Source: Strix aluco
Lineage: Eukaryota; Chordata; Aves; Strigiformes; Strigidae
Reading direction: 5' to 3'
DNA length: 64,000 nt
NCBI RefSeq assembly: GCF_031877795.1
Contig: NC_133942.1
Location: 3,224,001 to 3,288,000 of the forward strand
Of the stretch, positions 15,721-64,000 are shown piece after piece (within the stretch, counting starts at the first letter, position 1; each line of letters starts with the position of its first letter). The position numbers and the translations under genes are program-made. The notes under the pieces are model-generated. The model was not told the origin of the DNA and did not search any database. It saw only the letters and a list, made by a program, of their open reading frames with translations.

Positions 15721-18700
15721 TGCTCCTGCGGCATATCATCTAATATCAATATAACTAAGTTGTGTTCACGCCTGCTAAGACCAATTTCCTCAGAGCTCTC
15801 AGTCTAGCTGTGCAGAGATTTTAAGCGGCTTTCCATGACGTGGATCAGTTCCTTACATCGCCTTCTTCACCGTGAGGTTGGCAACCAGTCACGGTGAAAT
15901 TCAGTTTCAGGGACACCCCAAGTCAGCTCTGAAGTGCTTTCAGTGCATGGCGTCACGCCAACACTGGGAGACATCTCTCTCCCAGCGGGTCATGGTAGGG
16001 TCGCAGGAGATGGTGGGAGAAGAGACTCACGTCTCCAGAGATGCGGTAAAGCTCAACGACAAGGAAGCACCATTGTGGTCTGTGGGGATGCCCCTTGTAG
16101 GCAGGTGGCATGTAGGCAGGAAGTCTTTGATTACGCTCATCAGGCTCTGCCACAGACTGGTGTTGCGACCAAAGACATGTCCACGTCCTTGCCCCTTCCC
16201 TGAAAGAGACCCACACCCAGCGTGGCCTGTTTGGCTCAGGGAGTTCATCCCAGACGCCAGAGGCCACCATGGCCTGCTTTTGAGGAGAGGCTCGGGGCAC
16301 GGAGCCAAGAGCTCCTGGCCCTTTACCATGGGTCAGGGATGGGGTGGCCCATTCCATGCATTTCCCGTTTCAAAGGGACATTGGATCAGTCTCCCAGAGC
16401 ACTGGGAGTCATCATGATGTGGAAGAGTTGGGAAAAACCCTGAGCTCCTGGCAAACATGAGTCAGCCTGCTGTGGACTTCAGTGGACATGGTGGCCCGGC
16501 CTCAGGCATGCCAGGGATACCATAGCCCATAGCCTCATTCCTCCAATACATCTGCTTTCCCCAAGGACTTTGCCACACATTTTAGCACCGTTCCTGAAAC
16601 AAGTGGAACTTTTATGCTGGCCTGTTCTGCTGCTGCTACCTTGCAAGGTGTTGCTTTTGGTGGCTGCTCAGGGGCCCATGAGACCCAGTGCACCCCAGAG
16701 TAATGAAGGTCAGACGGGACCGCTGGTAGTCCTCTGCTCCTGCTCGGAGCAGACCAAACTTCCCAGTTACCTCAGGAAGCACTGGGCCTTGTGCCATTGA
16801 CGACTGAACACTGCCGCTGTCAGAGAGGTCACTGTCTCTTGTGCAGCTCTTCCCGGGTTGAATGGCAGTTTTCATGTGGTGCGTGTGATGACACGTCAAG
16901 GATGCCCACTTGTCTACCTCGTTCTCAGCAGGGTTGTTTCATCCCACTTTAAAACCCACCTAGTTCTAGGTTTGATCTGCTTGAGCTAAGAGGTTGGAGA
17001 GCACAAGGGCTGGGTGTGTGCGAGGCATGCCGCCGTCTCTGCGTTTCATTTTTATGCCACTGACTAGAAATCCCTTCTGGGCAGAAGGGCTGGAGAGAGG
17101 AGAGAAAATCTGTCCCAGCACGGCTTTCACTGTAAATGGCGGGGGGAGCCTTCACTCCTAATCCTGATAGTTACTTCCTGTCCATCTCCAGACCTCACCC
17201 CATAACCCTGGCATCTGCTCACCAGTGCTGCTGGCACCCTCAGTGTCATCTGGTGGCCCACTTGTGGGAGGCTCAGCTGTGAGAGCCTCTGGCTGGTAGG
17301 GTGGGGAGCAGGCCTCAAGCCCCTGTTCAGGTGAAAGCAGACCTGTTTGGTGGATCCATGGTTGGCGTGGGTCATCTCAAAAGGGCCTTTCCAACTCAAG
17401 CTGTTTGTCGAAAGCTGAGGAGAGGGAGGGTTGCCCTTCCCTTGCCTCTGCAGAGGACACATCTGGATTGGTGTGCCCCATTTTGCATCCCCAGGGGCAA
17501 GAGAGGTGGTGGTGATGATCTCTCATGGAGAGAGGTACTGGCAGAGGAGCAGGCGGGACGTAAGGGCTGGAGCGAGGGACGTATGGGGTGAGGCCGAGGG
17601 CACTAGGTTTGTGGAGCCTGGCGGAGATGAGCAAAGTGGGGAGGAGGGAATGGAACAGCTGTCTCCCATCAGCTCCAGGAGGTTAGAGAGAGGATGGAGC
17701 CAGACTCTCCTGAGAGGTGCACTGCTAAAGGGCAAGGGGCAACAACCACAAGTTGCAACAAGGGAAATGTCTTTTTGGGAAAAGCAGTGACACAGCTCAT
17801 GGTGCAGCCCTGGAAGAGCTACTCAAGAGACAGGGACCTCTCTGACAGTGGCAGTGTTCAGAAGTCAACAGGACAAGGCCCAGAGCCTGCGGAGGTACCT
17901 GGGAAGTTTGGTCTGCACAGAGCAGTGGATCGGAGCAGAAGACCTCCAGAGGTCCATTGCAACCTTTGTTGTTCTGGGGGACACTGCGTCACATGAGCCC
18001 CTGAGCAGCCACCAAAAGCCACCATGCCACGGAAGACAAAAAATGCAGGAGATTGCAGAGAAGCACCAGTTGATTCAGGAATGGTGCTAAAATGTGTGGA
18101 AATACCCTTGAGGAAGGCGGCACTTTGGGGCTATGAGCTCTGGTATCCCTGGCACGCATGGGAACCAGGCCACCGTGTCCACTGAAGTCCACAGCAGGCT
18201 GACTCATGTTTGCCAGGAGCTCAGGGTTTTTCCCAACTCTTCCACATCACGATGACTCCCAGTGCTCTGGGAGACTGATCCAATGTCCCTTTGAAATGGG
18301 AAATGCATGGAATGGGCCAGCCCATTCCTGACCCAGAGTAAATGGCCAGGAGCTCTTGGCTCTGTGCCCCGAGCCTCCCCTCAAAAGCAGGCCATGGTGG
18401 CCTCTGGCCTCTGGGAAGAACTCCCTGAGCAGAACAGGTCAATTTGCGTGTGGGTCTCCTTCAGGGAAGGACGTGGGCACGGCTTTGCTCACATCACCCT
18501 CTGTGGCAGAGCCTGATGAGCGTAAGCAAGGTCCTCACGGCCATCAGTCCTGCCCACAGGGGACATCCTTCCAGCCCACAACAGACTTTGCCGTTGAGTT
18601 GAGCTTTGCCTCACCCCTGGTGAGATGAGTCTCTTCTCCCACCATAGGGGATTGTGCTGTCTTGCCCTGCTGCCTGAACTTACTCACAGTGTGTCTGCGA

Positions 18701-18962
18701 TGACCCATGGGGGGAAATGTCTCTCAGGGTTAACCGGAGTGCCTGCACTGACAGCACTTGACTTGAGGTGTCCCTCAAAGCTGAATTTCACTGTGACTGG
18801 TGGCCATGCTCGCCATGAAGAAGGCAAAGTGACAAAGGCAATCTGTATCATGCAAACGCACTTCAAATCCCCTTGTACACTAGCCTGAGACCACTGAGTT
18901 GATTGGACTTAGGAAGCTGGGACACAGATGAATCGTTTCGATGTTCAGTGGTGTGAAGCGGG
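15721..18962 (+). repeat. Intergenic region between keratins C and D
   Basis: It is a direct, near-identical copy of 5116-8359: two diverged inverted halves around a single-copy centre near 17330. From 16436 on it also forms the outer part of the giant palindrome. No gene is recognised. Confidence 0.75.
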
Positions 18963-19159
18963 ATCACAACATTTCGGATGAAAGAGGCAAGGGCTGAATC
19001 ACCAGCGAGTCCTCGGCAAGCGACAACTGCTAGGTGTTCAGATGCTTCATGAGCAAGGAATGTTTGTGGCCCCACGGGGCTCGGGGACACAGCATAAAAG
19101 CCTGCGCTGCTCCAGGCTCTGCATCCTCCTCTCTTGCCTCTCTTTCCTCGAGGAACGAG
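18963..19159 (+). promoter_or_regulatory. Promoter and exon 1 of keratin D
   Basis: A TATA-like cataaaag lies at 19093-19100 and exon 1 ends at 19159 before gtaag. The layout is the same as for keratin B. Confidence 0.8.
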
Positions 19160-19719
19160 GTAAGCCTGAGTCTGCTGCATCTCTCTCTCTGTGGGCTGAA
19201 CTGCTGTCATGGTGGCTGCTCAGGTTGACACTTGGGCTGCCTCGGCTTGGCCCTGCAATAGAACAGTTGAAGGGCTGTCACCTCTTTCCCTCTTGGCGGA
19301 GGTGGCTGGGGAGGCCTGGGAAGAGGGGGTTCTTCCAAGCAGAAGGGAATCAATGGGGCTCAGCTGCAGGGAGGCCTGCCCACCAGAATTTGCACCTGCA
19401 GCAGATGGTCTCTAACCAAATGACCAGGTGCATCCAGTGCCTTCAAGATCAGCACTGCGCATTCTGGAGGTGGGCTGTGATCAGTGTTTCCACGGGTGCT
19501 TCAAACCCACTGTGCTGGGTCCTATCCCTACGTGGGTCAGCCTTCCTGTACCGTGCAACTCGGAGGGCACAATGAGGGTCGTGGGAGATGTAGGCACAGT
19601 CTGAGCTTTTAAAGCATACGGTGTCCACAGAGAGAGCTGAGGAAAAGAAAGACAGGCTGATACTGAATTTGGTGCTTCCTGCCTGCTCTGTGTTTCAGGT
19701 TTGCCTCCCTCACCGAGAG

Positions 19720-20037
19720 ATGTCGTGCTGCAGACCCTGTCCCCCACACCCCTGCGGTGCCTCTGGCCCAACCCCACTGGCAAGCAGCTGCACTGAGCCC
19801 TGTGTCGCCCGCTGTGCTGACTCGACGGTGTTCATCGAGGCCTCCCCGGTGGTGGTGACCCTGCCGGGCCCCATCCTCACCTCTTTCCCCCAGAGCACAG
19901 CCGTGGGATCCTCTCTGTCGGCTGCTGTTGGGAGCTCCCTCAGCTCCGGGGGGGTTCCCATCTCTTCTGGGGGCTCCCTTGGCCTGGGAGGGTCAGGGCT
20001 GTGTCTGCCTCCCCCCTGCTGCAGTATGAACTGCTGA
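19720..20037 (+). CDS. Feather-type beta-keratin D (variant)
   Basis: A 105-residue feather-type beta-keratin that differs from the common product at two sites: His for Arg at residue 10 (CPPHPC), and Cys for Arg at residue 100 ([10 protein letters not shown]), which makes an extra adjacent cysteine pair in the C-terminus. The extra cysteine could change cross-linking. This is inference. Exon 1 ends at 19159, the intron is 19160-19698 (539 bases), exon 2 starts at 19699 and the poly(A) signal is at 20463-20468. The gene is paired divergently with C. Its mirror D' (60399-60716) encodes the common sequence, so the two arms are not identical here. Confidence 0.93.
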
Positions 20038-20462
20038 AGCTGGTGGATCGTGTCCTTTGGAGCAGGATGGAAGACAGGGACCTTGCAGCAGCAGGAGCGT
20101 GGCCCTGGCTTGCAGATGGGCTGGGTGTGCTCACCTCACCTGTCAGGAGGGATCTGTGCCCACTTCTCCTCACTGCACAGCAGGACTCGTCATGTCTCCT
20201 GTGGTTCTGCTTCGCTCTGAGCTCCTCGAGAAAGGGCTCGTTCTCTTCTGCTTTGCTGAACTTCGTGCTGCTGGGGGGAGGGTGCCAGAGTTAGGGACTG
20301 CTCTTGGTGGTCTGGGATGGCCAGCAGGTAGAGCAGAATGGGAAAAGGCAAGCGCTTTGTGTGGAGCTTGTCCTTGGGAAACGGGCCATTCTCTGTGCCT
20401 CCCTGAACCCTGCAGATGTGTTTCTTGGTCTCTGTTCTGTGCCACTGCGTTTCTTCCTTCTC

Positions 20463-20468
20463 ATTAAA
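20463..20468 (+). terminator. Poly(A) signal of keratin D
   Basis: ATTAAA about 425 bases after the stop codon, in the conserved 3'UTR context. Confidence 0.75.
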
Positions 20469-20489
20469 GACTTTGTGCAGCAGAGCTGT

Positions 20490-22450
20490 GTGGAGTCCTG
20501 TGGTGGTTTGTTCTCCTCCTGCCTCAGTTAACCCTCTGCTCTGCAAGGAAGAGCACTGACTTCTGTCCTGAGCTCACCACCAGTTGGGGATAGAGCTCCC
20601 TCAACTGATAGCAGAGCACCAAAAAGGCTCAGAGTCGTTGTGCATGAATCTGTAACCTGCTGATCATGGGCCTGTGGGGCCAGTTGCCACATTGTTCCTT
20701 GAGGTATTTAATACAGATAGTTTGAATGAGCATTTTGGTCCTCTTAATTTTTGCTCACAAACATCATATGAAAAACAGTCATGGCACTTCTCTCTTTTTC
20801 TATGGTGCTGTGGGAATAAATTCCAGGGCATGCGTATGGAGAGGAAAGGAGAAAAGCACCTTTTTTCATGGCTGGAGGTAGGCAGTGTGAGTGCCAGATG
20901 AGGTTAGGGTGGGCATTTCCATAGGGAACTGACATGCGCAATCATGATCCTCCCGTTCTTAACTCCACCTACTCGTAGGACTGCTGATGACAGAGTGGGA
21001 GTCTGTAACTTGTGTGCTAACACACACCCCACATACAACCCCACTGCCCAGGATGGTTTTTGACTGTCAGCACAGCAAAGAGCATGGCTTTTTTTCTTTT
21101 AAGCAAGCCTGGAGTGAGAGACTTGAGAAGCTTTGTCCCCGTTCGGTAGAGAATCCAGTTATGAGAGGCGCCTTGTGTTTGCCTTGGCCCACAGGCCGTA
21201 AGCTGCAAGAGCAATGAGGGTGTCTCAGTTCTTAGTTTCCAGGAGCATTATTACACGCAGTTCCAGTAAACTTCAGGGTGTCTCTGCGATGCCGGAGCCT
21301 GGAGAGGGTAGGTCAGCGTCTCCAGGGTGACTTCAGCTCAGACGGACAGGCCTTTGAGCCATCGCACAAAGAATAGGCCTCCTCTCACCACACAGTCAAA
21401 TTGCATACCCGGCCTCATGAAGCACAGTCTGTCCCTTGAGCACCACTCAGGCATTATTGATCTTCATCTGCACCCTGCCACGGCAGTACGCTTTCCTCGC
21501 CAGGTGCAACCAGCCACAGCAGCCGCAGCAGCAGGACCAGCTCTGTGCCAGGCCAAAAAAGCCTCTCTCCTGGCTCCCGTACCAGCACTGCAGTGAAGAC
21601 TCAAGCCTGGAGCCCTCCCAGCAGGCAGAAAGCACTGGTCTCAGCTGGTCTCAAGGCTGCAGGGAGGCGAGGGCCGTGGCTTGAAACCCCAGGGGAAAGC
21701 TGCGTGGTTTCTGAGCAGAAGAGCCTGCCTGCAGAAGATGTGAAGGCACCCGTCCTGGAGCCAGGCTGAAGAGCCGTTTGCCAGCATTGGCCAGGAATCA
21801 CGAAGACGGGACAACTGCTTGGAAGGCAGCTGTGCTCAGCACTATTCCATCAGCGCACCTGTGGGCAGCGTTGCCTCCTGCTCCTCCAGATCAGAGCCTG
21901 GACGGCCTCCTGCTCCTCCACTTCACAGACTGGCCGGCCTCCTCCCTCCAGCCGCCTGCACACACCGTTCCTCAAGCCGCTCCTCGTGCTCGCCATCTCC
22001 ACTGCAACCACCTCCCACCCTTGCCCTGCATGCAGACAGGCACTGCCACATGTACCACCTCCATACCATCTACTCAGCACCACTCTCCTCCTCCAGAGCC
22101 AAAAGGGAATCAGAGCTATTTTCATCTAGTGATGGAAATGATCGGTTTTGCAGGCCGTTTGGCATTTTGGTCCATGCTCAGGCATTGCACAGTGCTTGCC
22201 AGAGCTGGCAAAACCATCCAGACAAACCTATTCCACCGACACAAGGTGTCTCCTGTCTCCCTCCAAGTCATCCACACCTCCCATTTATTCTCACTTTGCC
22301 CCTCCACACTTTTCCTCAGACAGGCTCTACCTTGCGCTTTCCATAGAACTCTCCCACTGTCGCAAACTGTCCCCCCTACACACCAGAACGTGCACAGCAG
22401 TCGTGGTCTTTGATCAAGGGTTGACCCCACCTTGCGTCTCCGTGAGGCTG
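20490..22450 (+). repeat. Keratin 3' flank block, copy D
   Basis: It is a direct copy of 9880-11840 and mirrors 58000-59940. No gene is recognised. Open frames of up to 211 codons are present on both strands and are probably incidental. Confidence 0.8.
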
Positions 22451-22871
22451 GAGGTGCTGCCGGGAGGTCACCATCTTCCCTGCAGCAATGTCCCCACCCT
22501 ACTGCTCTTAGCAGGCTTGGAGTCCCCCTCAGCTAAGTTTGAGAAGCAAAGCCGGGGCTAATAGCCCACCCCACAACTGCCACCATGCCTGGTTGTCTCC
22601 ACACAGCTGCCTTCCCGTCCTCCCTTCTTTACCTGGTGCCCAGGGAAACAGTAAAGCCCCCTTCCCTACAACACTGCTAGGCAACTTGCTTAGGGGAACA
22701 AACACTGCCTAGGACTAAGAGGTTTTACCTCAGGGTCAATGTGACCTGAAGTCCCAACCTAAATCTAAGCTGGCAGTGGCTGAGAACACCCCGTGCAGAC
22801 AATAAAACAATAGGAGATTTGTCTTTCAAAAACACCGCGGCCATGTGACCGTGGCCAGAAGAGCAATGGAC
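22451..22871 (+). other. Intergenic DNA shared with 11841-12239
   Basis: It is near-identical to the corresponding stretch after keratin B and mirrors about 57565-57985. No gene is seen. Confidence 0.6.
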
Positions 22872-23770
22872 CTGAGACCATGCAGCCATTCCCTAAGCCC
22901 TTCCCCGCCAGCACGGGGAAGGAGAAAACAAAGAAAAAGGGTCAGGGATCGAGATAAGGACAGGGAGGGGTGTCTCACTCATTATGGTCAAGGGTAAAAC
23001 GCAGGCTCGTTAGGGGAAGAAATCAAAGAACATCACTTTAATTCGAAACACTAACCCCAACACTTAACTGACAGAATGGGATGGTGAGAAGCATTACCAC
23101 ATCTTAAAAACATCTTCCCCCATGCTTCCCTTCTTCCTGGGCTCAGTTTTATTCCTGGTATCTCTACCTCCTCGCTCCAGCGGTGCAGGGGCAGGGGATG
23201 GGGGGTGTGGTCAGTCCGCCGCTTGTTCAAAACGGGAGAGGGGGGAAAGCACTCTTCTGCATTCTTCCCTCTGCTCCATGTGGCTCCCCTGTCATGGGAG
23301 ACAGTCCTTCATGAAATTTCTCTGGCATGAGTTCTTGCCACGGGATGCAGCCGTTCCTGGGCTGCTCGGCATGGGTTCCCCCCATACGTGTTGCAGTCCT
23401 CCCAGCACCAAAATACAACAGTGGGGTCTTCTTCCCTCAGAGTCTCGGCCTTCTTCGTGCGCAGCCGCCTACTCCGGTGTGAGGTCCTCCACAGGCCGCA
23501 GGCAGATCTCTGCTCCACCGGTGACCTCCATGGGTGGCGGGTCGGGGCGGGGGGGTGGTGGCCCTGCCGTCTCACCAGGGGATACAGGGGGGCTCTCTGC
23601 TCCGGTGCGCCTCCTCTGCTTCCTCCTCCTTCCTCCACTGGCCTCGGTGTTTGCACAGGTGTCCTTCTCGAAACTCCTCCTCGGGAGTCCCAACCCCCTC
23701 TCAGATTCCCCTTCTTAAATACGGTATCGCAGATGCGCAGCCACTGTCGCTGATTGGCTCGGCCTTGGCC
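22872..23770 (-). mobile_element. Partial GC-rich ERVL-type LTR next to keratin E
   Basis: It is a copy of the LTR at 12240-13251. It joins keratin intron sequence directly at about 23771 and is antisense to keratin E. The element is partial. Because it is shared with the tandem unit containing A and B, the join probably arose by recombination between a keratin unit and the LTR. Confidence 0.75.
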
Positions 23771-24379
23771 ATCAATGGGGCTCAGCTGCAGGGAGGCCTG
23801 CCCACCAGAATTTGCACCTGCAGCACATGGTCTCTATCCAAATGGCCAGGTGCATCTAGTGCCTTCAAGATCAGCACTGCACGTTCTGGAGGTGGGCTGT
23901 GATCAGTGTTTCCACGGGTGCTTCAAACCCACTGTGCTGTGGGTCCTATCCCTACATGGGTCAGCCTTCCTGTACCGTGCCACTTGGATGGCACGATGAG
24001 GGTCGTGGGAGCTGTAGGCACACCGTGTGTTTTTTTAAGAGGTGTTTTCCGAGGCACCTGTTTGTGCTGGGATAATTACATCAATCTTCCTCCCTGCTCT
24101 TGTACCGGGAAATGCAGCAGAATGTCCTGTTGGAATCAGCAGGCAGTTAGGCACATCTCTGCTGCAGTCCTTCCAATCCAGCCTTAACGCAGGATGTCAC
24201 GCTGTTGTGCGTGTTAGCAAGATCACGTGCAGGCCCTTTCTCCACATGGAGCTAGAAATGGAGGTGGAGGGCAGCAAAGTGTATCTGCAGAGAGAGCTGA
24301 GGAAATGATTGACAGGTTGATCTTGGGGTCTGTGTTTCCTGCCTGCTCTGTGTGTCAGGTTTGCCTCCCTCACCGAGAG

Positions 24380-24697
24380 ATGTCTTGCGGCAGACCCTGT
24401 CCCCCACGCCCCTGCGGTGCCTCTGGCCCAACCCCACTGGCAAGCAGCTGCACTGAGCCCTGTGTCGCCCGCTGCGCTGACTCGACGGTGGCCATCCAGG
24501 CCTCCCCGGTGGTGGTGACCCTGCCGGGCCCCATCCTCACCTCTTTCCCCCAGAGCACAGCCGTGGGATCCTCTCTGTCGGCTGCTGTTGGCAGCTCCCT
24601 CAGCTCCGGGGGGGTTCCCATCTCTTCTGGGGGCTCCCTTGGCCTGGGAGGGTCAGGGCTGTGTCTGCCTCCCCCCCGCTGCAGTATGAACTGCTGA
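24380..24697 (+). CDS. Feather-type beta-keratin E (divergent core, no own exon 1)
   Basis: An intact 105-codon feather-type beta-keratin with a second sequence type: Gly for Cys at residue 4, and Ala-Ile-Gln instead of Phe-Ile-Glu at residues 38-40, inside the beta-sheet core. The acceptor AG is at 24357-24358. Keratin intron sequence of the long type runs upstream only to about 23771, where it meets an antisense LTR. The usual exon 1, donor and TATA-like box are absent within that distance. Transcription would need a new start, perhaps from the LTR (inference), or else the gene is silent. The 3'UTR is complete, with a poly(A) signal at 25121-25126. The reading frame is undamaged, so promoter loss may be recent. 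The mirror copy is E'. Confidence 0.85.
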
Positions 24698-25120
24698 ATG
24701 CGGCAGGTAATCCTCTTTGGAGCAGGATGGAAGACAAGGACCTTTCAGCAGCAGCATCATGGCCCTGGCTTGCAGATGGGCTAGGTGTCCTCACCTCACC
24801 TGACAGGAGGGATCTGTGCCTAATTCTCACTGCACAGCAGGCCTCTTTTTTTCTCCTCTGCTTGTCCTTGTACTCTGAGCTCCTCGAGAAAGGGCTCATT
24901 CTCTTCTGCTTTGCTGAACTTCGTGCTGCTGGGGGGAGGGTGCCAGAGTTAGGGACTGCTCTTGGTGGTCTGGGATGGCCAGCAGGTAGAGCAGAATGGG
25001 AAAAGGCAAGCGCTTTGTGTGGAGCTTGTCCTTGGGAAACGGGCCATTCTCTGTGCCTCCCTGAACCCTGCAGATGTGTTTCTTGGTCTCTGTTCTGTTT
25101 CACTGCATTTCCTCCTTCTC

Positions 25121-25126
25121 ATTAAA
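25121..25126 (+). terminator. Poly(A) signal of keratin E
   Basis: ATTAAA in the conserved keratin 3'UTR context. Confidence 0.7.
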
Positions 25127-25384
25127 AACTTTGTGCAACACAGCTGGAGACCCGTGATGGTTTGTTCTCATCCTTCCTCAATTGGCCACGACCTCTGCAA
25201 GGAAATGGTAGAACCTCCTCTCTCCCATGACACAAATCTCTCTCCATTCTTGGGGTACTGTTAGTTGTCAGTGGATCTCCTTGGGCCGATACCAGAGCAG
25301 CAAAAATAAACAAGCAGGCAAAATAGAGACAGAAAGTTCTCCAGGAATTGGAGAGATCACGAAGCAATGGACAAGGTTGGAAAT
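25127..25384 (+). other. 3' flank of keratin E
   Basis: It is a diverged match to the first 130 bases or so of the keratin 3' flank, then unrecognised sequence. Confidence 0.5.
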
Positions 25385-25575
25385 ACAAGTAAAGCTACAC
25401 ACAGTAACCCTGTCTTAGTCTGAGAGTGGTCAAACATGGGAAACGTGTTGCCCAGGGACTATTGTATAGTCTCCATGTTTGGAGATGTCTAGTATCCAAC
25501 TAGACAAGGCCCTGAATTGCCTCCTCTACTTGACTCTGCTTTGTGCCGGGCTTGGACTGCATCATCTCCAGCTCA
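25385..25575 (+). mobile_element. CR1 LINE 3' fragment
   Basis: It resembles the CR1 3' region, including the gtgttgcccaggga and ctccatgtttggaga segments. It is old and partial. The mirror copy is at 54860-55050. Confidence 0.55.
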
Positions 25576-25859
25576 GGTGTTGTGTGATTGGGTGAGGCTC
25601 TGCTGGATGCCCTCAGCCAGGAGCAGCCATCAAGCACAGTGGAGCAGAGGTGGGCTGGGGACCAGTGCTCAGGAAAGCTGCAGAGGTTTGGTGGTCAAAG
25701 GGTAGGAGAAGGGGCACTGATGTCAGTCCCAGGGCTGGGAGCACAGGAAAGGAAGGAAGATCAGAGTGCATTATAAAGAATTGACCCAACAGAAAGGCTG
25801 TTAAGCCTTTCTTAAGCTGTAAGCATGCTGAGGAAAAGCTTGAGGGAGCCAAAAGGTTG
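25576..25859 (+). other. No feature recognised
   Basis: Single-copy intergenic DNA apart from its mirror. I see no gene in it. Confidence 0.5.
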
Positions 25860-25931
25860 AGGTCCCACTGAGATTTGAACTCAGATCGCTGGATTCAGAG
25901 TCCAGAGTGCTCACCATTACACCATGGGACC
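25860..25931 (-). tRNA. tRNA-Gln(CTG), left-arm copy
   Basis: These 72 bases on the minus strand form a full cloverleaf. The acceptor is GGTCCCA/TGGGACC, the D-arm is TGGTGTAATGGTGAGCA, the anticodon loop is CTCTGAA (CTG) between CTGGA and TCCAG, and the T-arm is CTGAG/TTCAAAT/CTCAG. All stems pair. It closely matches vertebrate glutamine tRNAs, with a compensated change in the acceptor and T stems. The A and B boxes look usable by RNA polymerase III. CCA is not encoded, as expected. The mirror copy is at 54504-54575. Confidence 0.95.
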
Positions 25932-52624: not shown

Positions 52625-52735
52625 ATGCACAAGGTGGTACAAGAGCATGCCCGAGCACATCATGATTGAGGGAGGTGCTGAATGATCTGGGTTTGTTCAG
52701 CCTGGAGAAGAGAAAGTGAGGGGGCTTCCGCTGTG
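52625..52735 (+). mobile_element. CR1 LINE fragment, right-arm copy
   Basis: Mirror of 27700-27810, with ttcagcctggagaagagaa on the plus strand. Confidence 0.65.
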
Positions 52736-54503
52736 TGAAGGTGGCTCTCTGGCTTTCCAAGGCCTGTCCTCAGCCAGAAAGACCTCGGGAGTGCAGGACC
52801 CAGGAGTGGCCTGGCCTCCTGTGTGAGCTGGTGGGGCCTGAGCTGCAGCTCCCAGGGGCTGGGGATCTCTGGGAGATCTCTGGCTGCCCACTGAAGCCTG
52901 TAAGGGGGACACGGAAAGTCCTACCTGCAGTGTCCTACACGGAGGAGCGGCATTGAAGGCTGCAGTGGGAGGAACATTTGCCATGCCCACGGGGAAGCAA
53001 ACAGGTTGGGGACCACAGCAGCCCCACCCCAGCAAGCCATGCTGCCAGGAGGGAAACCAAGGACAAAATGGCCTGAGCAGGGAAGCTGCCTGCACTGGCC
53101 CACACAACCAGAATCCTTTCTCCCCGAGTGCTGGGCAAGACTAGCAGAGCCCCAGGAAAACCTTCTATTGCTTGGGGAAACACTGTCTCAGCCCCAAAAG
53201 ATACATCCCTCCTCCTGCTGCGGCAGAGCATCTGCATGGGGTAGGGCTGTCCAGCCCTGCTCTTGCTGCTCCCAGACTCTCCTCCCACACTGCTCAGTCC
53301 TGCAGACCACAGGGATGGATGAGGAAAGCCCTCAGCAATGCTGCTTCTCCGGGACATGCTTTCAGAGTTGTGACTCTGTAGAGATTTAACCCTTCTCCAG
53401 CAACTAGGTGTTTCTCATGCGCCCTCTGAATATAACCTGCCAGTTGATGTCTTAGGCTTGGGCATGGCAGCGTGGTCTGTCTTGTGGGTTCAGAAGTACC
53501 AGATGCCAGCCCAGTGCTTTGGGCAGTGCAAAGGTACCAGGAGGTTGTGTCCTCAGTGTCCCAGGCTAAGTCTGAGATCCAATAGAGTGTCCCCGCATGT
53601 CTTTCCTCCTGTCTGACTGCTGGGAGGAAGGGTCCTGCTCTCAACACACAGACTCAAACCATGGCAGAAGGAGGATCGCACCAGTGCAGCTTTACCCGGA
53701 TGTGTGCATGGACCCTTCTGGGGCAGACAGTGTGCTGGTCCCAGGGCATGAGGGAAAGTTCCCTCAGGCTCACAGTGCAATGTACTGAGTCTGGAGCAGC
53801 CTCAGGAGAGAAAATGATGTTCTCACTGAGGGAGAGGCCACTTTGGTGCACAAGGGGAGAGCATGTCCTGGAAGAAAGGACCTGGGTTTGAAATCAGCCA
53901 AGACTGTCCCAGCAGAGGAAGGCAGTCCAGCTCGTGCAATCCTTAACAAGCTACTATGGGTCCTCTTCCTGCCAGCTCTTCCCTCTGCTGAACCTCATCC
54001 CCTGCCCTCTCGTTTGGTTGCCTTGTTCAGCAAGGTCAGGAGCTCAGTTAGGACGGCAACCAAGAGTAAGGATATCTGGTTAATGGCTGCTTAGTATGAG
54101 CTACAAGGTGAGAAACAGGAGAGCTAGTAAGTTACACAGGCAGATTGACAGACCGTCCACCATGGGGGTGAAGAGAGTCAGCAGCAGAGACCGCAAATGC
54201 AAGGATTGAACCACCGATTGCTGGGCCATGAAAATACCCTGTGAGATGCAAGCTTGAAGAAGTTCTACTGGAAACTTCATAACTGGATCTAATTAGGCAA
54301 AATCAAGATTCTCAGAGGTTACCAGCCTGAGTCTTGTATGAGAGGGCACGCCAAGCTTGCACAAAGAGCTCTGCCACTCCCTTGAAAGGCCCTGTGAGAC
54401 TGTACTTTGTGATGGCCAGGGAGATGGAGAGAGTGGCAGGTTCAGCCAGGAGTATAAGGCTCAGCGATGGTGGGCTCAGGGGAATAGCAGCATCTGTGCA
54501 AGA
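52736..54503 (-). other. No gene recognised, right arm
   Basis: Mirror of 25932-27699, with a handful of substitutions. Confidence 0.45.
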
Positions 54504-54575
54504 GGTCCCATGGTGTAATGGTGAGCACTCTGGACTCTGAATCCAGCGATCTGAGTTCAAATCTCAGTGGGACCT
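54504..54575 (+). tRNA. tRNA-Gln(CTG), right-arm copy
   Basis: Mirror of 25860-25931 with identical tRNA sequence and all stems paired. The immediate 3' DNA differs slightly between arms: this copy has caatcttttggc, with a T4 run that could end RNA polymerase III transcription, while the left copy reads caaccttttggc. Confidence 0.95.
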
Positions 54576-54859
54576 CAATCTTTTGGCTCCCTCGAGCTTT
54601 TCTTCAGCATGCTTACAGCTTAAGAAAGGCTTAACAGCCTTTCTGTTGGGTCAATTCTTTATAATGCACTCTGATCTTCCTTCCTTTCCTGTGCTCCCAG
54701 CCCTGGGACTGACATCAGTGCCCCTTCTCCTACCCTTTGACCACCAAACCTCTGCAGCTTTCCTGAGCACTGGTCCCCAGCCCACCTCTGCTCCACTGTG
54801 CTTGATGGCTGCTCCTGGCTGAGGGCATCCAGCAGAGCCTCACCCAATCACACAACACC
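54576..54859 (-). other. No feature recognised, right arm
   Basis: Mirror of 25576-25859. Confidence 0.45.
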
Positions 54860-55050
54860 TGAGCTGGAGATGATGCAGTCCAAGCCCGGCACAAAGCAGA
54901 GTCAAGTAGAGGAGGCAATTCAGGGCCTTGTCTAGTTGGATACTAGACATCTCCAAACATGGAGACTATACAATAGTCCCTGGGCAACACGTTTCCCATG
55001 TTTGACCACTCTCAGACTAAGACAGGGTTACTGTGTGTAGCTTTACTTGT
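54860..55050 (-). mobile_element. CR1 LINE 3' fragment, right-arm copy
   Basis: Mirror of 25385-25575. Confidence 0.55.
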
Positions 55051-55308
55051 ATTTCCAACCTTGTCCATTGCTTCGTGATCTCTCCAATTCCTGGAGAACT
55101 TTCTGTCTCTATTTTGCCTGCTTGTTTATTTTTGCTGCTCTGGTATCGGCCCAAGGAGATCCACTGACAACTAACAGTACCCCAAGAATGGAGAGAGATT
55201 TGTGTCATGGGAGAGAGGAGGTTCTACCATTTCCTTGCAGAGGTCGTGGCCAATTGAGGAAGGATGAGAACAAACCATCACGGGTCTCCAGCTGTGTTGC
55301 ACAAAGTT

Positions 55309-55314
55309 TTTAAT
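55309..55314 (-). terminator. Poly(A) signal of keratin E'
   Basis: ATTAAA on the minus strand. Mirror of 25121-25126. Confidence 0.7.
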
Positions 55315-55737
55315 GAGAAGGAGGAAATGCAGTGAAACAGAACAGAGACCAAGAAACACATCTGCAGGGTTCAGGGAGGCACAGAGAATGGCCCGTTTCC
55401 CAAGGACAAGCTCCACACAAAGCGCTTGCCTTTTCCCATTCTGCTCTACCTGCTGGCCATCCCAGACCACCAAGAGCAGTCCCTAACTCTGGCACCCTCC
55501 CCCCAGCAGCAGGAAGTTCAGCAAAGCAGAAGAGAATGAGCCCTTTCTCGAGGAGCTCAGAGTACAAGGACAAGCAGAGGAGAAAAAAAGAGGCCTGCTG
55601 TGCAGTGAGAATTAGGCACAGATCCCTCCTGTCAGGTGAGGTGAGGACACCTAGCCCATCTGCAAGCCAGGGCCATGATGCTGCTGCTGAAAGGTCCTTG
55701 TCTTCCATCCTGCTCCAAAGAGGATTACCTGCCGCAT

Positions 55738-56055
55738 TCAGCAGTTCATACTGCAGCGGGGGGGAGGCAGACACAGCCCTGACCCTCCCAGGCCAAGGGA
55801 GCCCCCAGAAGAGATGGGAACCCCCCCGGAGCTGAGGGAGCTGCCAACAGCAGCCGACAGAGAGGATCCCACGGCTGTGCTCTGGGGGAAAGAGGTGAGG
55901 ATGGGGCCCGGCAGGGTCACCACCACCGGGGAGGCCTGGATGGCCACCGTCGAGTCAGCGCAGCGGGCGACACAGGGCTCACTGCAGCTGCTTGCCAGTG
56001 GGGTTGGGCCAGAGGCACCGCAGGGGCGTGGGGGACAGGGTCTGCCGCAAGACAT
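55738..56055 (-). CDS. Feather-type beta-keratin E' (right-arm copy of E)
   Basis: An intact 105-codon frame with the E-type residues Gly4, Ala38 and Gln40. It differs from E by Ser for Thr at residue 25 (SSCSEPC). Exon 2 starts at 56076, and long-type intron sequence runs to about 56664, where an LTR in the opposite orientation begins. As in E, exon 1, donor and TATA-like box are missing, so its transcription is doubtful unless the LTR or another upstream start drives it. The 3'UTR and poly(A) signal (55309-55314) are present. Confidence 0.85.
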
Positions 56056-56664
56056 CTCTCGGTGAGGGAGGCAAACCTGACACACAGAGCAGGCAGGAAA
56101 CACAGACTCCAAGATCAACCTGTCAATCATTTCCTCAGCTCTCTCTGCAGATACACTTTGCTGCCCTCCACCTCCATTTCTAGCTCCATGTGGAGAAAGG
56201 GCCTGCACGTGATCTTGCTAACACGCACAACAGCGTGACATCCTGCGTTAAGGCTGGATTGGAAGGACTGCAGCAGAGATGTGCCTAACTGCCTGCTGAT
56301 TCCAACAGGACATTCTGCTGCATTTCCCGGTACAAGAGCAGGGAGGAAGATTGATGTAATTATCCCAGCACAAACAGGTGCCTCGGAAAACACCTCTTAA
56401 AAAAACACACGGTGTGCCTACAGCTCCCACGACCCTCATCGTGCCATCCAAGTGGCACGGTACAGGAAGGCTGACCCATGTAGGGATAGGACCCACAGCA
56501 CAGTGGGTTTGAAGCACCCGTGGAAACACTGATCACAGCCCACCTCCAGAACGTGCAGTGCTGATCTTGAAGGCACTAGATGCACCTGGCCATTTGGATA
56601 GAGACCATGTGCTGCAGGTGCAAATTCTGGTGGGCAGGCCTCCCTGCAGCTGAGCCCCATTGAT

Positions 56665-57564
56665 GGCCAAGGCCGAGCCAATCAGCGACAGTGGCTGCGC
56701 ATCTGCGATACCGTATTTAAGAAGGGGAATCTGAGAGGGGGTTGGGACTCCCGAGGAGGAGTTTCGAGAAGGACACCTGTGCAAACACCGAGGCCAGTGG
56801 AGGAAGGAGGAGGAAGCAGAGGAGGCGCACCGGAGCAGAGAGCCCCCCTGTATCCCCTGGTGAGACGGCAGGGCCACCACCCCCCCGCCCCGACCCGCCA
56901 CCCATGGAGGTCACCGGTGGAGCAGAGATCTGCCTGCGGCCTGTGGAGGACCTCACACCGGAGTAGGCGGCTGCGCACGAAGAAGGCCGAGACTCTGAGG
57001 GAAGAAGACCCCACTGTTGTATTTTGGTGCTGGGAGGACTGCAACACGTATGGGGGGAACCCATGCCGAGCAGCCCAGGAACGGCTGCATCCCGTGGCAA
57101 GAACTCATGCCAGAGAAATTTCATGAAGGACTGTCTCCCATGACAGGGGAGCCACATGGAGCAGAGGGAAGAATGCAGAAGAGTGCTTTCCCCCCTCTCC
57201 CGTTTTGAACAAGCGGCGGACTGACCACACCCCCCATCCCCTGCCCCTGCACCGCTGGAGCGAGGAGGTAGAGATACCAGGAATAAAACTGAGCCCAGGA
57301 AGAAGGGAAGCATGGGGGAAGATGTTTTTAAGATGTGGTAATGCTTCTCACCATCCCATTCTGTCAGTTAAGTGTTGTGGTTAGTGTTTCGAATTAAAGT
57401 GATGTTCTTTGTTTTCTTCCCCTAACGAGCCTGTGTTTTGCCCTTGACCATAATGAGTGAGACACCCCTCCCTGTCCTTATCTCGATCCCTGACCCTTTT
57501 TCTTTGTTTTCTCCTTCCCCGTGCTGGCGGGGAAGGGCTTAGGGAATGGCTGCATGGTCTCAGG
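56665..57564 (+). mobile_element. Partial GC-rich ERVL-type LTR, right-arm copy
   Basis: Mirror of 22872-23770. It is antisense to keratin E' and joins its intron at about 56664. The element is partial. Confidence 0.75.
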
Positions 57565-57985
57565 TCCATTGCTCTTCTGGCCACGGTCACATGGCCGCGG
57601 TGTTTTTGAAAGACAAATCTCCTATTGTTTTATTGTCTGCACGGGGTGTTCTCAGCCACTGCCAGCTTAGATTTAGGTTGGGACTTCAGGTCACATTGAC
57701 CCTGAGGTAAAACCTCTTAGTCCTAGGCAGTGTTTGTTCCCCTAAGCAAGTTGCCTAGCAGTGTTGTAGGGAAGGGGGCTTTACTGTTTCCCTGGGCACC
57801 AGGTAAAGAAGGGAGGAAGGGAAGGCAGCTGTGTGGAGACAACCAGGCATGGTGGCAGTTGTGGGGTGGGCTATTAGCCCCCGCTTTGCTTCTCAAACTT
57901 AGCTGAGGGGGACTCCAAGCCTGCTGAGAGCAGTAGGGTGGGGACATTGCTGCAGGGAAGATGGTGACCTCCCGGCAGCACCTCC
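57565..57985 (-). other. Intergenic DNA, right-arm copy of 22451-22871
   Basis: No gene is seen. Confidence 0.5.
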
Positions 57986-59946
57986 AGCCTCACGGAGACG
58001 CAGGGTGGGGTCAACCCTTGATCAAAGACCACGACTGCTGTGCACGTTCTTGGTGTGTAGGGGGGACGGTTTGCGACAGTGGGAGAGTTCTATGGAAAGC
58101 GCAAGGTAGAGCCTGGCTGAGGAAAAGTGTGGAGGGGCAAAGTGAGAATAAATGGGAGGTGTGGATGACTTGGAGGGAGACAGGAGACACCTTGTGTCGG
58201 TGGAATAGGTTTGTCTGGATGGTTTTGCCAGCTCTGGCAAGCACTGTGCAATGCCTGAGCATGGACCAAAATGCCAAACGGCCTGCAAAACCGATCATTT
58301 CCATCACTAGATGAAAATAGCTCTGATTCCCTTTTGGCTCTGGAGGAGGAGAGTGGTGCTGAGTAGACGGTATGGAGGTGGTACATGTGGCAGGGCCTGT
58401 CTGCATGCAGGGCAAGGGTGGGAGGTGGTTGCGGTGGAGATGGCGAGCACGAGGAGCGGCTTGAGGAACGGTGTGTGCAGGCGGCTGGAGGGAGGAGGCC
58501 GGCCAGTCTGTGAAGTGGAGGAGCAGGAGGCCGTCCAGGCTCTGATCTGGAGGAGCAGGAGGCAACGCTGCCCACAGGTGCGCTGGTGGAATAGTGCTGA
58601 GCACAGCTGCCTTCCAAGCAGTTGACCCGTCTTCGTGATTCCTGGCCAATGCTGGCAAACGGCTCTTCAGCCTGGCTCCAGGACGGGTGCCTTCACATCT
58701 TCTGCAGGCAGGCTCTTCTGCTCAGAAACCACCCAGCTTTCCCCTGGGGTTTCAAGCCACAGCCCTCGCCTCCCTGCAGCCTTGAGACCAGCTGAGACCA
58801 GTGCTTTCTGCCTGCTGGGAGGGCTCCAGGCTTGAGTCTTCACTGCAGTGCTGGTACGGGAGCCAGGAGAGAGGCTTTTTTGGCCTGGCACAGAGCTGGT
58901 CCTGCTGCTGCGGCTGCTGTGGCTGGTTGCACCTGGCGAGGAAAGCGTGCTGCCGTGGCAGGGTGCAGATGAAGATCAATAATGCCTGAGTGGTGCTCAA
59001 GGGACAGACTGTGCTTCATGAGGCCGGGTATGCAATTTGGCTGTGTGGTGAGAGGAGGCCTATTCTTTGTGCGATGGCTCAAAGGCCTGTCCGTCTGAGC
59101 TGAAGTCACCCTGGAGACGCTGACCTACCCTCTCCAGGCTCCGGCATCGCAGAGACACCCTGAAGTTTACTGGAACTGCGTGTAACAATGCTCCTGGTAA
59201 CTAAGAACTGAGACACCCTCATTGCTCTTGCAGCTTACGGCCTGTGGGCCAAGGCAAACACAAGGCGCCTCTCATAACTGGATTCTCTACTGAACGGGGA
59301 CAAAGCTTCTCAAGTCTCTCACTCCAGGCTTGCTTCAAAGAAAAACAGCCATGCTCTTTGCTGTGCTGACAGTCAAAAACCATCCTGGGCAGTGGGGTTG
59401 TATGTGGGGTTTGTGTTAGCACACAAGTTACAGACTCCCACTCTGTCATCAGCAGTCCTACGAGTAGGTGGAGTTAAGAACGGGAGGATCATGATTGCGC
59501 ATGTCAGTTCCCTATGGAAATGCCCACCCTAACCTCATCTGGCACTCACACTGCCTACCTCCAGCCATGAAAAGGGGTGCTTTTCTCCTTTCCTCTCCAT
59601 ACGCATGCTCTGGAATTTATTCCCACAGCACCATAGAAAAAGAGAGAAGTGCCATGACTGTTTTTCATACGATGTTTGTGAGCAAAAATTAAGAGGACCA
59701 AAATGCTCATTCAAACTATCTGTATTAAATACCTCAAGGAACAATGTGGCAACTGGCCCCACAGGCCCATGATCAGCAGGTTACAGATTCATGCTCAACG
59801 ACTCTGAGGCTTTTTGGTGCTCTGCTATCAGTTGAGGGAGCTCTATCCCCAACTGGTGGTGAGCTCAGGACAGAAGTCAGTGCTCTTCCTTGCAGAGCAG
59901 AGGGTTAACTGAGGCAGGAGGAGAACAAACCACCACAGGACTCCAC
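57986..59946 (-). repeat. Keratin 3' flank block, copy D'
   Basis: Mirror of 20490-22450 and homologous to 1630-3535. Scattered substitutions separate it from the left-arm copy. No gene is recognised. Confidence 0.8.
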
Positions 59947-59967
59947 ACAGCTCTGCTGCACAAAGTC

Positions 59968-59973
59968 TTTAAT
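59968..59973 (-). terminator. Poly(A) signal of keratin D'
   Basis: ATTAAA on the minus strand in the conserved context. Confidence 0.75.
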
Positions 59974-60398
59974 GAGAAGGAAGAAACGCAGTGGCACAGA
60001 ACAGAGACCAAGAAACACATCTGCAGGGTTCAGGGAGGCACAGAGAATGGCCCGTTTCCCAAGGACAAGCTCCACACAAAGCGCTTGCCTTTTCCCATTC
60101 TGCTCTACCTGCTGGCCATCCCAGACCACCAAGAGCAGTCCCTAACTCCGGCACCCTCCCCCCAGCAGCACGAAGTTCAGCAAAGCAGAAGAGAACGAGC
60201 CCTTTCTCGAGGAGCTCAGAGTGAAGCAGAACCACAGGAGACATGACGAGGCCTGCTGTGCAGTGAGGAGAAGTGGGCACAGATCCCTCCTGACAGCTGA
60301 GGTGAGCACACCCAGCCCGTCTGCAAGCCAGGGCCACGCTCCTGCTGCTGCAAGGTCCCTGTCTTCCATCCTGCTCCAAAGGACACGATCCACCAGCT

Positions 60399-60716
60399 TC
60401 AGCAGTTCATACTGCAGCGGGGGGGAGGCAGACACAGCCCTGACCCTCCCAGGCCAAGGGAGCCCCCAGAAGAGATGGGAACCCCCCCGGAGCTGAGGGA
60501 GCTCCCAACAGCAGCCGACAGAGAGGATCCCACGGCTGTGCTCTGGGGGAAAGAGGTGAGGATGGGGCCCGGCAGGGTCACCACCACTGGGGAGGCCTCG
60601 ATGAACACCGTCGAGTCAGCACAGCGGGCGACACAGGGCTCAGTGCAGCTGCTTGCCAGTGGGGTTGGGCCAGAGGCACCGCAGGGGCGTGGGGGACAGG
60701 GTCTGCAGCAAGACAT
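60399..60716 (-). CDS. Feather-type beta-keratin D' (right-arm copy of D)
   Basis: A 105-residue feather-type beta-keratin with the common sequence shared by A, B, C and F. Unlike its mirror D, it has Arg at residues 10 and 100. Exon 2 starts at 60737, the intron is 60738-61276 (539 bases), exon 1 ends at 61277, a TATA-like box is at 61336-61343 and the poly(A) signal is at 59968-59973. All parts needed for expression are present. The differences from D, together with scattered changes in the flanks, show that the outer part of the palindrome is not an exact copy. Confidence 0.93.
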
Positions 60717-61276
60717 CTCTCGGTGAGGGAGGCAAACCTGAAACACAGAGCAGGCAGGAAGCACCAAATTCAGTATCAGCCTGTCTTTCTTTTCCTCAGC
60801 TCTCTCTGTGGACACTGTATGCTTTAAAAGCTCAGACTGTGCCTACATCTCCCAAAACCCTCATTGTGCCCTCCGAGTTGCACGGTACAGGAAGGCTGAC
60901 CCACGTAGGGATAGGACCCACCACAGTGGGTTTGAAGCACCCGTGGAAACACTGATCACAGCCCACCTCCAGAACGCGCAGTGCTGATCTTGAAGGCACT
61001 GGATGCACCTGGCCGTTTGGTTAGAGACCATCTGCTGCAGGTGCAAATTCTGGTGGGCAGGCCTCCCTGCAGCTGAGCCCCATTGATTCCCTTCTGCTTG
61101 GAAGAACCCCCTCTTCCCAGGCCTCCCCAGCCACCTCCGCCAAAAGGGAAAGAGGTGACAGCCCTTCAACTGTTCTATTGCAGGGCCAAGCCGAGGCAGC
61201 CCAAGTGTCAACCTGAGCAGCCACCATGACAGCAGTTCAGCCCACAGAGAGAGAGATGCAGCAGACTCAGGCTTAC

Positions 61277-61473
61277 CTCGTTCCTCGAGGAAAGAGAGGC
61301 AAGAGAGGAGGATGCAGAGCCTGGAGCAGCGCAGGCTTTTATGCTGTGTCCCAGAGCCCCGTGGGGCCACAAACATTCCTTGCTCATGAAGCATCTGAAC
61401 ACCTAGCAGTTGTCGCTTGCCGAGGACTCGCTGGTGATTCAGCCCTTGCCTCTTTCATCCGAAATGTTGTGAT
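61277..61473 (-). promoter_or_regulatory. Promoter and exon 1 of keratin D'
   Basis: A TATA-like cataaaag lies at 61336-61343 (minus strand) and exon 1 ends at 61277 before gtaag. Mirror of 18963-19159. Confidence 0.8.
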
Positions 61474-64000
61474 CCCGCTTCACACCACTGAACATCGAAA
61501 CGATTCATCTGTGTCCCAGCTTCCTAAGTCCAATCAACTCAGTGGTCTCAGGCTAGTGTACAAGGGGATTTGAAGTGGGTTTGCATGATACAGATTGCCT
61601 TTGTCACTTTGCCTTCTTCATGGCGAGCATGGCCACCAGTCACAGTGAAATTCAGCGTTGAGGGACACCTCAAGTCAAGTGCTGTCAGTGCAGGCACTCC
61701 GGTTAACCCTGAGAGACATTTCCCCCCACGGGTCATCGCAGACACACTGTGAGTAAGTTCAGGCAGCAGGGCAAGACGGCACAATCCCCTATGGTGGGAG
61801 AAGAGACTCATCTCACCAGGGGTGAGGCAAAGCTCAACTCAACGGCAAAGTCTGTTGTGGGCTGGAAGGATGTCCCCTGTGGGCAGGACTGATGGCCGTG
61901 AGGACCTTGCTTACGCTCATCAGGCTCTGCCACAGAGGGTGATGTGAGCAAAGCCGTGCCCACGTCCTTCCCTGAAGGAGACCCACACGCAAATTGACCT
62001 GTTCTGCTCAGGGAGTTCATCCCAGAGGCCAGAGGCCACCATGGCCTGCTTTTGAGGGGAGGCTCGGGGCACAGAGCCAAGAGCTCCTGGCCCTTTACTC
62101 TGGGTCAGGAATGGGCTGGCCCATTCCATGCATTTCCCATTTCAAAGGGACATTGGATCAGTCTCCCAGAGCACTGGGAGTCATCGTGATGTGGAAGAGT
62201 CAGGAAAAACCCTGAGCTCCTGGCAAACATGAGTCAGCCTGCTGTGGACTTCAGTGGACACGGTGGCCTGGTTCCCATGCGTGCCAGGGATACCAGAGCT
62301 CATAGCCCCAAAGTGCCGCCTTCCTCAAGGGTATTTCCACACATTTTAGCACCATTCCTGAATCAACTGGTGCTTCTCTGCAATCTCCTGCATTTTTTGT
62401 CTTCCATGGCATGGTGGCTTTTGGTGGCTGCTCAGGGGCTCGTGTGACGCAGTGTCCCCCAGAACAACAAAGGTTGCAATGGGCCTCTGGAGGTCTTCTG
62501 CTCCGATCCACTGCTCTGTGCAGACCAAACTTCCCAGGTACCTCCGCAGGCTCTGGGCCTTGTCCTGTTGACTTCTGAACACTGCCACTGTCAGAGAGGT
62601 CCCTGTCTCTTGAGTAGCTCTTCCAGGGCTGCACCGTGAGCTGTGTCACTGCTTTTCCCAAAAAGACATTTCCCTTGTTGCAACTTGTGGTTGTTGCCCC
62701 TTGCCCTTTTGCAGTGCACCTCTCAGGAGAGTCTGGCTCCATCCTCTCTCTAACCTCCTGGAGCTGATGGGAGACAGCAGTTCCATTCCCTCCTCCCCAC
62801 TTTGCTCATCTCCGCCAGGCTCCACAAACCTAGTGCCCTCGGCCTCACCCCATACGTCCCTCGCTCCAGCCCTTACGTCCCGCCTGCTCCTCTGCCAGTA
62901 CCTCTCTCCATGAGAGATCATCACCACCACCTCTCTTGCCCCTGGGGATGCAAAATGGGGCACACCAATCCAGATGTGTCCTCTGCAGAGGCAAGGGAAG
63001 GGCAACCCTCCCTCTCCTCAGCTTTCGACAAACAGCTTGAGTTGGAAAGGCCCTTTTGAGATGACCCACGCCAACCATGGATCCACCAAACAGGTCTGCT
63101 TTCACCTGAACAAGGGCTTGAGGCCTGCTCCCCACCCTACCAGCCAGAGGCTCTCACAGCTGAGCCTCCCACAAGTGGGCCACCAGATGACACTGAGGGT
63201 GCCAGCAGCACTGGTGAGCAGATGCCAGGGTTATGGGGTGAGGTCTGGAGATGGACAGGAAGTAACTATCAGGATTAGGAGTGAAGGCTCCCCCCGCCAT
63301 TTACAGTGAAAGCCGTGCTGGGACAGATTTTCTCTCCTCTCTCCAGCCCTTCTGCCCAGAAGGGATTTCTAGTCAGTGGCATAAAAATGAAACGCAGAGA
63401 CGGCGGCATGCCTCGCACACACCCAGCCCTTGTGCTCTCCAACCTCTTAGCTCAAGCAGATCAAACCTAGAACTAGGTGGGTTTTAAAGTGGGATGAAAC
63501 AACCCTGCTGAGAACGAGGTAGACAAGTGGGCATCCTTGACGTGTCATCACACGCACCACATGAAAACTGCCATTCAACCCGGGAAGAGCTGCACAAGAG
63601 ACAGTGACCTCTCTGACAGCGGCAGTGTTCAGTCGTCAATGGCACAAGGCCCAGTGCTTCCTGAGGTAACTGGGAAGTTTGGTCTGCTCCGAGCAGGAGC
63701 AGAGGACTACCAGCGGTCCCGTCTGACCTTCATTACTCTGGGGTGCACTGGGTCTCATGGGCCCCTGAGCAGCCACCAAAAGCAACACCTTGCAAGGTAG
63801 CAGCAGCAGAACAGGCCAGCATAAAAGTTCCACTTGTTTCAGGAACGGTGCTAAAATGTGTGGCAAAGTCCTTGGGGAAAGCAGATGTATTGGAGGAATG
63901 AGGCTATGGGCTATGGTATCCCTGGCATGCCTGAGGCCGGGCCACCATGTCCACTGAAGTCCACAGCAGGCTGACTCATGTTTGCCAGGAGCTCAGGGTT
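61474..64000 (-). repeat. Intergenic region upstream of keratin D'
   Basis: It mirrors 16436-18962 and is homologous to 5840-8359. It contains the two diverged inverted halves and the single-copy centre near 63100. No gene is recognised. By symmetry a copy of keratin C should follow beyond the window edge (prediction). Confidence 0.75.

Follow-up and report, generated by a model that had tools for sequence, protein, structure and literature searches.

The window described here is a stretch of 64,000 bp from Strix aluco (contig NC_133942.1, abbreviated C12, positions 3224001-3288000) that carries part of a cluster of keratin genes, presumably of the feather type as judged from the character of their sequences, together with a long palindrome in which keratin and tRNA genes are mirrored and which is referred to as Q (arms QL and QR). 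The genome comprises 1.41 Gb in 202 contigs, C12 measuring 27,499,915 bp, and a total of 300 kb was examined (C12:3100001-3370000 and C12:3440001-3470000). Positions without prefix are those of the window, and contig (ctg) coordinates equal the C12 position minus 3,100,000, or the window position plus 124,000. An older copy of Q is named P (arms PL and PR), and a further palindrome to the right is named T; feature coordinates are collected in Table 1. Searching the 300 kb by tblastn yielded thirty-three keratin matches, one of them a fragment; their aligned portions are all free of stops. Among seven window proteins searched against Pfam, three keratin frames matched PF02422 at 102-103 bits (cut-off 25), a reverse transcriptase (RT)-like frame in the Q spacer gave an RVT_1 match below the cut-off, and the other three had no match.

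An earlier note, made from the letters alone, had reported a palindrome with arms of at least 21 kb around a spacer of about 5.5 kb, and had proposed self-alignment as a source of an exact identity profile. Self-BLAST of the window bears out the structure with an inverted match of 99.57%: 16436-37481 aligns with 64000-42952 on the minus strand at 99.568% over 21,049 columns, with 88 mismatches and 3 gap openings. The window end cuts the right arm, and with the flanks included the arms in fact reach 33.0 kb (C12:3228486-3261481 and C12:3266952-3299965, or ctg 128486-161481 vs 199965-166952; 33,015 columns, 99.228% identity), the true start of the left arm being 4486 rather than 16436. The measured spacer (37482-42951, 5,470 bp) lies within 9 bases of the limits given earlier (37475-42960), and the nearly constant coordinate sums noted before (80434-80436) recur for three tRNA or tRNA-like pairs in Rfam, one of them weak, and for two keratin pairs located by tblastn (Pfam was applied to one member of these pairs, 24305-24697). 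A chance origin of the mirror match is excluded by its length and identity, and the palindrome is real in the assembly. Inverted arms of many kilobases, at least 99% alike around a distinct spacer, are a trait that Q shares with the conversion-maintained ampliconic palindromes of the Y, X and W type. The outer ~19 kb of either arm consists of two tandem units of 10.6 kb, in which keratins occur in both orientations. The right-hand array (ctg 180664-229101) holds about 4.5 such units altogether, two of them within the right arm; only the inner 13.7 kb of the arms lies outside tandem units. At the left spacer junction a repeated element is cut, and its remainder sits in the spacer. The GC content is 53.1% in the Q arms, 50.8% in the Q spacer and 49.6% in the left flank.

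The two arms are not uniformly alike. The inner arms differ by 24 mismatches in 13,711 bp (0.18%; 19 transitions and 5 transversions), eight of which fall within the last 56 bp before the spacer (37426-37481). Mismatch spacing in the inner arm is non-uniform (dispersion p=0.0008), giving a patchy identity, and the longest mismatch-free stretch is 4,210 bp (p=0.005), with a 1-bp insertion/deletion (indel) inside it at 31153. The least diverged block, ctg 151783-161425, contains 4 mismatches, and divergence rises stepwise outward, the outer arm at 4486-16435 (ctg 128486-140435) carrying 150 mismatches in 11,950 bp. Over the 33-kb arms there are 238 mismatches vs 7 indels. A self-comparison of 16436-37481, which is blind to solo long terminal repeats, detected one direct-repeat pair of at least 120 bp outside the keratin units (30335-30468 and 31701-31833, 76% identity).

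A genome search with the spacer DNA returned two near-full-length copies, both on C12, namely the query itself and the spacer of P, a palindrome inverted relative to Q on the same contig with 64 kb between the two spacers. The P and Q spacers differ at 179 of 5,460 columns (3.28%), and both junctions of the spacer fall within a single P/Q alignment, which extends 212 bp past the right junction, is interrupted by a 227-bp deletion in the arm of P, and then resumes. P possesses its own mirrored tRNA-Ser pair, and the identity between its arms is 95-96% close to the spacer and 83% farther out. On these features we read P as a decaying palindrome of common descent with Q. The keratin in the P spacer (C12:3194069-3194386) is probably decaying: of 17 translated keratin genes it is the one with an altered C-terminus and without the stop in its usual position.

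The four arms of P and Q allow exchange between arms to be recognized. Without exchange, the orientation of the spacers predicts that QL pairs with PR and QR with PL, or QL with PL and QR with PR had the spacer been flipped. These pairings were scored at 1,841 filtered columns from three blocks in which all four arms are aligned (201, 475 and 1,165 columns), gapped columns and columns with local identity to QL below 70% having been dropped. The 54 informative sites fall into 50 for QL+QR|PL+PR, 4 for QL+PR|QR+PL and 0 for QL+PL|QR+PR. The four sites of positional kinship are the outermost ones (37432, 37451, 37476 and 37479; ctg 161432, 161451, 161476 and 161479): within 50 bp of the spacer, every one of the 4 informative sites pairs each Q arm with the P arm of matching position, and in the blocks tested farther in all 50 pair the two Q arms. 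The chance of all four being outermost is 1/316,251, or 1/1,326 if the last two sites are set aside, as homology between the arms may have ceased before them. The edge alignment also contains a 1-bp insertion common to QR and PL (the indel at 37430) and a C at ctg 161451 common to QL and PR, vs the other copies shown. P and Q thus parted from a palindrome that already had two differing arms, and the inward blocks tested have been overwritten since. The site test shows that the palindrome predates the P/Q split and that its arms exchanged sequence afterwards, which upholds the arm-to-arm homogenization put forward in the earlier note.

The degree of similarity and the trees point the same way. 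At 3.75% divergence (BLAST identity 96.246%) some 515 inner mismatches would be expected and 24 were observed; with 0.18% between QL and QR vs 3.28% between the P and Q spacers, the arms are too similar for the age of the palindrome. In trees (support by Shimodaira-Hasegawa approximate likelihood ratio test/ultrafast bootstrap, SH-aLRT/UFBoot), the QL+QR split received 89.2/87 in block alpha, 96/94 in beta, 78/76 in gamma and 97.1/96 in delta. The P arms next to the spacer group together in delta (95.9/94), and in gamma they cluster along with another copy (98/100). Since the P arms and the Q arms are each grouped near the spacer, the family has seen exchange on at least two occasions.

We propose, with a probability of roughly 0.8, that Q is a genuine palindrome of the keratin cluster, older than the P/Q split, whose arms have been homogenized by arm-to-arm gene conversion. 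This reading is built on the anatomy, on P spanning both junctions, and on the change from kinship by position at the edge to kinship by palindrome in the inward blocks, all of which are visible in the sequence. An inverted duplication would have produced a mirrored pair of arms around a spacer of about 5.5 kb, and this original event may have been a single one with its breakpoint inside the repeated element at about 37481. The ancestral palindrome would itself have been duplicated to give Q and P, the latter now decayed and with its spacer in the opposite orientation. The Q arms would since have been homogenized by conversion stopping about 50 bp from the spacer, presumably between the arms of one chromatid or of sister chromatids, and the keratin units at the outer arm ends would have been multiplied by tandem duplication. 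The outcome would raise the keratin dose.

Several observations weigh against this proposal. The positional kinship at the arm ends rests on few sites, and consensus polishing could have erased true differences from the inner arms. In each of the seven indels that separate the 33-kb arms, the left arm is the one that lacks bases. That at 37430 corresponds to the edge insertion of QR and PL, and the remaining six may be due to chance, one-sided loss or a consensus fault. PL in block beta shows higher identity to Q (92.8%) than to PR (82.9%), and in block alpha a copy in the spacer of T is 99.0% and PL 97.8% like Q, which suggests that exchange or duplication involves other copies too, sequence having moved between palindromes or been duplicated recently. 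A GC bias of conversion was not seen among the 8 changes that the Q arms have in common over 5.5 kb (2 weak-to-strong, 5 strong-to-weak, 1 strong-to-strong), a number too small for the purpose. The similarity of the outer arms is no evidence for arm-to-arm conversion because that part behaves as tandem units, with identities of 98.7% between L1 and L2, 99.1-99.6% among R1-R4 and 98.6-99.1% across the arms (unit R5 was left out, since the excised stretch overran the unit and was 87% identical to all others). Conversion between the arms was considered for this outer part and rejected, as the identities and a weak tree (75, split between sides) favor homogenization within each side.

The same facts bear on the other explanations. 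A young, single inverted duplication, with arms alike through youth and no conversion, is compatible with the high identity taken alone and with the absence of a visible GC bias in eight shared changes, but P, with a spacer divergence of 3.28%, holds both junctions together with the edge states found in the two Q arms, and a young duplication would need to recreate the identical two junctions. The shared junctions and edge states place the origin of the two arms before P and Q parted, and we consider a young duplication improbable. The earlier note had offered as its own alternative an assembly artefact, either a fold-back chimera or two haplotypes joined head to head. In its favor, all evidence comes from one assembly, the arm indels are one-sided (7 of 7), a run of 63 Ns lies in the right arm of P (C12:3202778-3202840, ctg 102778-102840), representing an assembly gap or a withheld stretch, and 149 Ns occur in the 30 kb from C12:3440001. 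Yet the window itself is free of N, a 5.5-kb spacer is present, the arms differ patchily and chiefly by substitutions, and P, with a spacer about 3% different, runs across both junctions without any N between C12:3191193 and 3199764. The continuity of P argues strongly against both forms of artefact, and we regard an artefact of either kind as improbable.

A variant that overlaps with our proposal accepts an old and real palindrome and explains the likeness of its arms, in place of repeated conversion, by one long copying event in which one arm served as the template for break-induced replication or template switching. The concentration of the least divergence in one block (ctg 151783-161425) agrees with it, as does the unseen GC bias in so few changes; the outward climb of divergence in steps, with no single sharp tract end, does not, and the grouping of the P arms beside their spacer in delta implies at least two exchanges in the family. 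A single event appears unlikely to us on balance, and we retain the proposal of gene conversion between the arms of an old palindrome.

Inverted structures recur in the cluster, and keratin copy number comes mainly from tandem arrays. A count from the tblastn coordinates in the 300 kb places 26 of the 33 keratin matches in such arrays, 9 in 6.6-kb, 13 in 10.6-kb and 4 in 4.55-kb units. Because most copies lie in tandem arrays, tandem duplication made most of them and the palindrome mirrors its products, and the idea of the earlier note that the palindrome was a route of keratin amplification was not sustained. Palindrome T lies to the right of the window (C12:3329461-3340073 vs 3349569-3360193; ctg 229461-240073 vs 260193-249569) and has 10.6-kb arms at 99.6%, a 9.5-kb spacer and a mirrored tRNA-Ser; its GC content is 52.9% in the arm and 54.9% in the spacer. 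The right arm of T ends in a keratin tandem array with a register of 4,554 bp (C12:3361749-3416981), in which at least 12 matches are in register and two stretches offset by one register share 99.93% identity over 7.1 kb. To the left of the window are two inverted, diverging keratin arrays of 6.6-kb units (C12:3100001-3126886, genes on the minus strand, and C12:3129766-3160174, genes on the plus strand), about 99.3% alike across, with the nearest arm pair at 99.6% over 3.2 kb; they encode a different keratin with 75.7% protein identity to that of the window.

The usual explanation of long palindromes with arm-to-arm conversion invokes what non-recombining sex chromosomes and germline genes require. 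Q sits among structural keratin genes, and its decayed sister P serves as an internal clock that reveals the exchange directly. We put the odds at about even that, on a non-sex chromosome, feather-type keratins reside in a family of palindromes that arise, are duplicated, become homogenized arm to arm and finally decay. If this is true, palindromic conversion would be a driver of concerted evolution in a family of somatic structural genes, at odds with the view, expressed for beta-keratins, that gene conversion is possibly very rare (PMC2894828). If the contig is autosomal, the maintenance of palindromes is separated from the lack of recombination, and a testable mechanism for keeping keratin copies alike is at hand.

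Like Q, the human Y palindromes P1-P8, e.g., P6, have large inverted arms around a spacer that are homogenized by gene conversion, and their arm-spacer boundaries are kept between relatives, as they are between Q and P (PMC3723533). They differ in carrying testis genes, whereas the genes found in Q are structural keratins and tRNAs, and in that P6 has arms above 99.9% alike with GC-biased conversion, whereas Q is at 99.2% overall and 99.8% inside with GC bias undetected (PMC3723533). GC-biased conversion is likewise reported for primate X palindromes, which share with Q long arms and, on the reading proposed here, intrachromosomal conversion; their arms are clearly GC-richer than the flanks, whereas the Q arms are slightly richer than the spacer and the T arm is poorer than its spacer (PMC8981503). 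The duck W contains 38 palindromes of 15.2-345.5 kb, a size range that includes Q, but they are nested repeats seemingly without robustly expressed genes, unlike the Q arms with their intact keratin frames (PMC7787181). Long inverted repeats with gene pairs in C. elegans resemble Q in that the inverted structure outlasts the sequence, which is read as active maintenance, in a different lineage and with other genes (PMC1803023). In chicken, the feather keratin array on GGA27 comprises 61 genes, of which 50 share one strand and 11 are on the opposite strand, and has blocks in opposed orientation as in the cluster of Q; unlike for Q, no palindrome is described in the portion of that text consulted (PMC2894828). 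Expanded feather keratin families are also mentioned elsewhere (PMC10360393). In the open-licence literature searched for keratin or autosomal palindromes, no report of a keratin palindrome was found.

Table 1. Features of palindromes Q and P (window positions unless marked C12 or ctg; aa, amino acids)
Feature	Position	Strand	Remarks
Left arm, outer part	4486-23771	+	Two tandem units of 10.6 kb, which share 8.7-kb blocks (4486-13138, 15091-23771); self-BLAST
Left arm, inner part (QL)	23771-37481	+	Outside tandem units; one keratin, tRNA-Gln(CTG), weak tRNA-like match, tRNA-Ser(AGA)
Spacer	37482-42951	.	One keratin gene, RT-like fragment, rest of repeated element; arm ends from BLAST
Right arm, inner part (QR)	42952-56664	-	Mirrors 23771-37481
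Right arm, outer part	56664-64000	-	Start of tandem unit R1; arm extends past window to C12:3299965
Unconverted edge, left arm	37426-37481	+	Mismatch list; informative sites 37432, 37451, 37476, 37479
Unconverted edge, right arm	42952-43008	-	Mirrors 37426-37481
Arm indels	7905, 8090, 10382, 15545, 22384, 31153, 37430		Mismatch/indel list of 33-kb arms
Keratin, outer tandem unit, left arm	9110-9427	+	PF02422 E=6.8e-30; tblastn
Keratin, opposite orientation, outer left arm	14418-14735	-	tblastn
Keratin, left arm, 105 aa	19720-20037	+	tblastn and translation
Keratin, mirror of 19720-20037	60399-60716	-	2 aa differences; tblastn and translation
Keratin, inner left arm, 105 aa	24380-24697	+	PF02422 E=1.3e-29 on longer frame 24305-24697
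Keratin, mirror of 24380-24697	55738-56055	-	1 aa difference (T/S); tblastn and translation
Keratin in spacer	40494-40811	-	PF02422 E=6.6e-30 on longer frame 40494-40886
tRNA-Gln(CTG), left arm	25860-25931	-	Rfam 68.2 bits, ARAGORN
tRNA-Gln(CTG), right arm	54504-54575	+	Mirror of 25860-25931; Rfam, ARAGORN
tRNA-like, weak, left arm	32302-32372	-	Rfam 30.9 bits (cut-off 29); uncalled by ARAGORN
tRNA-like, weak, right arm	48062-48132	+	Mirror of 32302-32372; Rfam
tRNA-Ser(AGA), left arm	36588-36669	-	About 0.8 kb from spacer; Rfam, ARAGORN
tRNA-Ser(AGA), right arm	43765-43846	+	Mirror of 36588-36669; Rfam, ARAGORN
P, whole	C12:~3179943 to ~3205457	inverted vs Q	BLAST
P left arm (PL)	ctg ~79943-91921		
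P spacer	ctg 91922-97399 (C12:3191922-3197399)	inverted vs Q spacer	
P right arm (PR)	ctg 97400 to ~105457		

Some minor features of the genes were also recorded. Within the 10.6-kb repeat, adjacent keratin genes are arranged as an inverted pair (9018-9976 and 13868-14827) with 960 bp in common at 97.5%. The 300 bp upstream of the keratin genes split them in two, and two promoter classes were considered; longer alignments reveal an indel instead, a length difference of ~234 bp upstream of the coding sequence (about -93 to -356) that divides the genes into two groups and beyond which homology resumes. A tRNA-Phe-like match (1259-1340, 38.7 bits in Rfam) lies to the left of the left arm, and a tRNA-Met was called in a related segment (C12:3187233-3187304); the amplified segments carry tRNA genes along.

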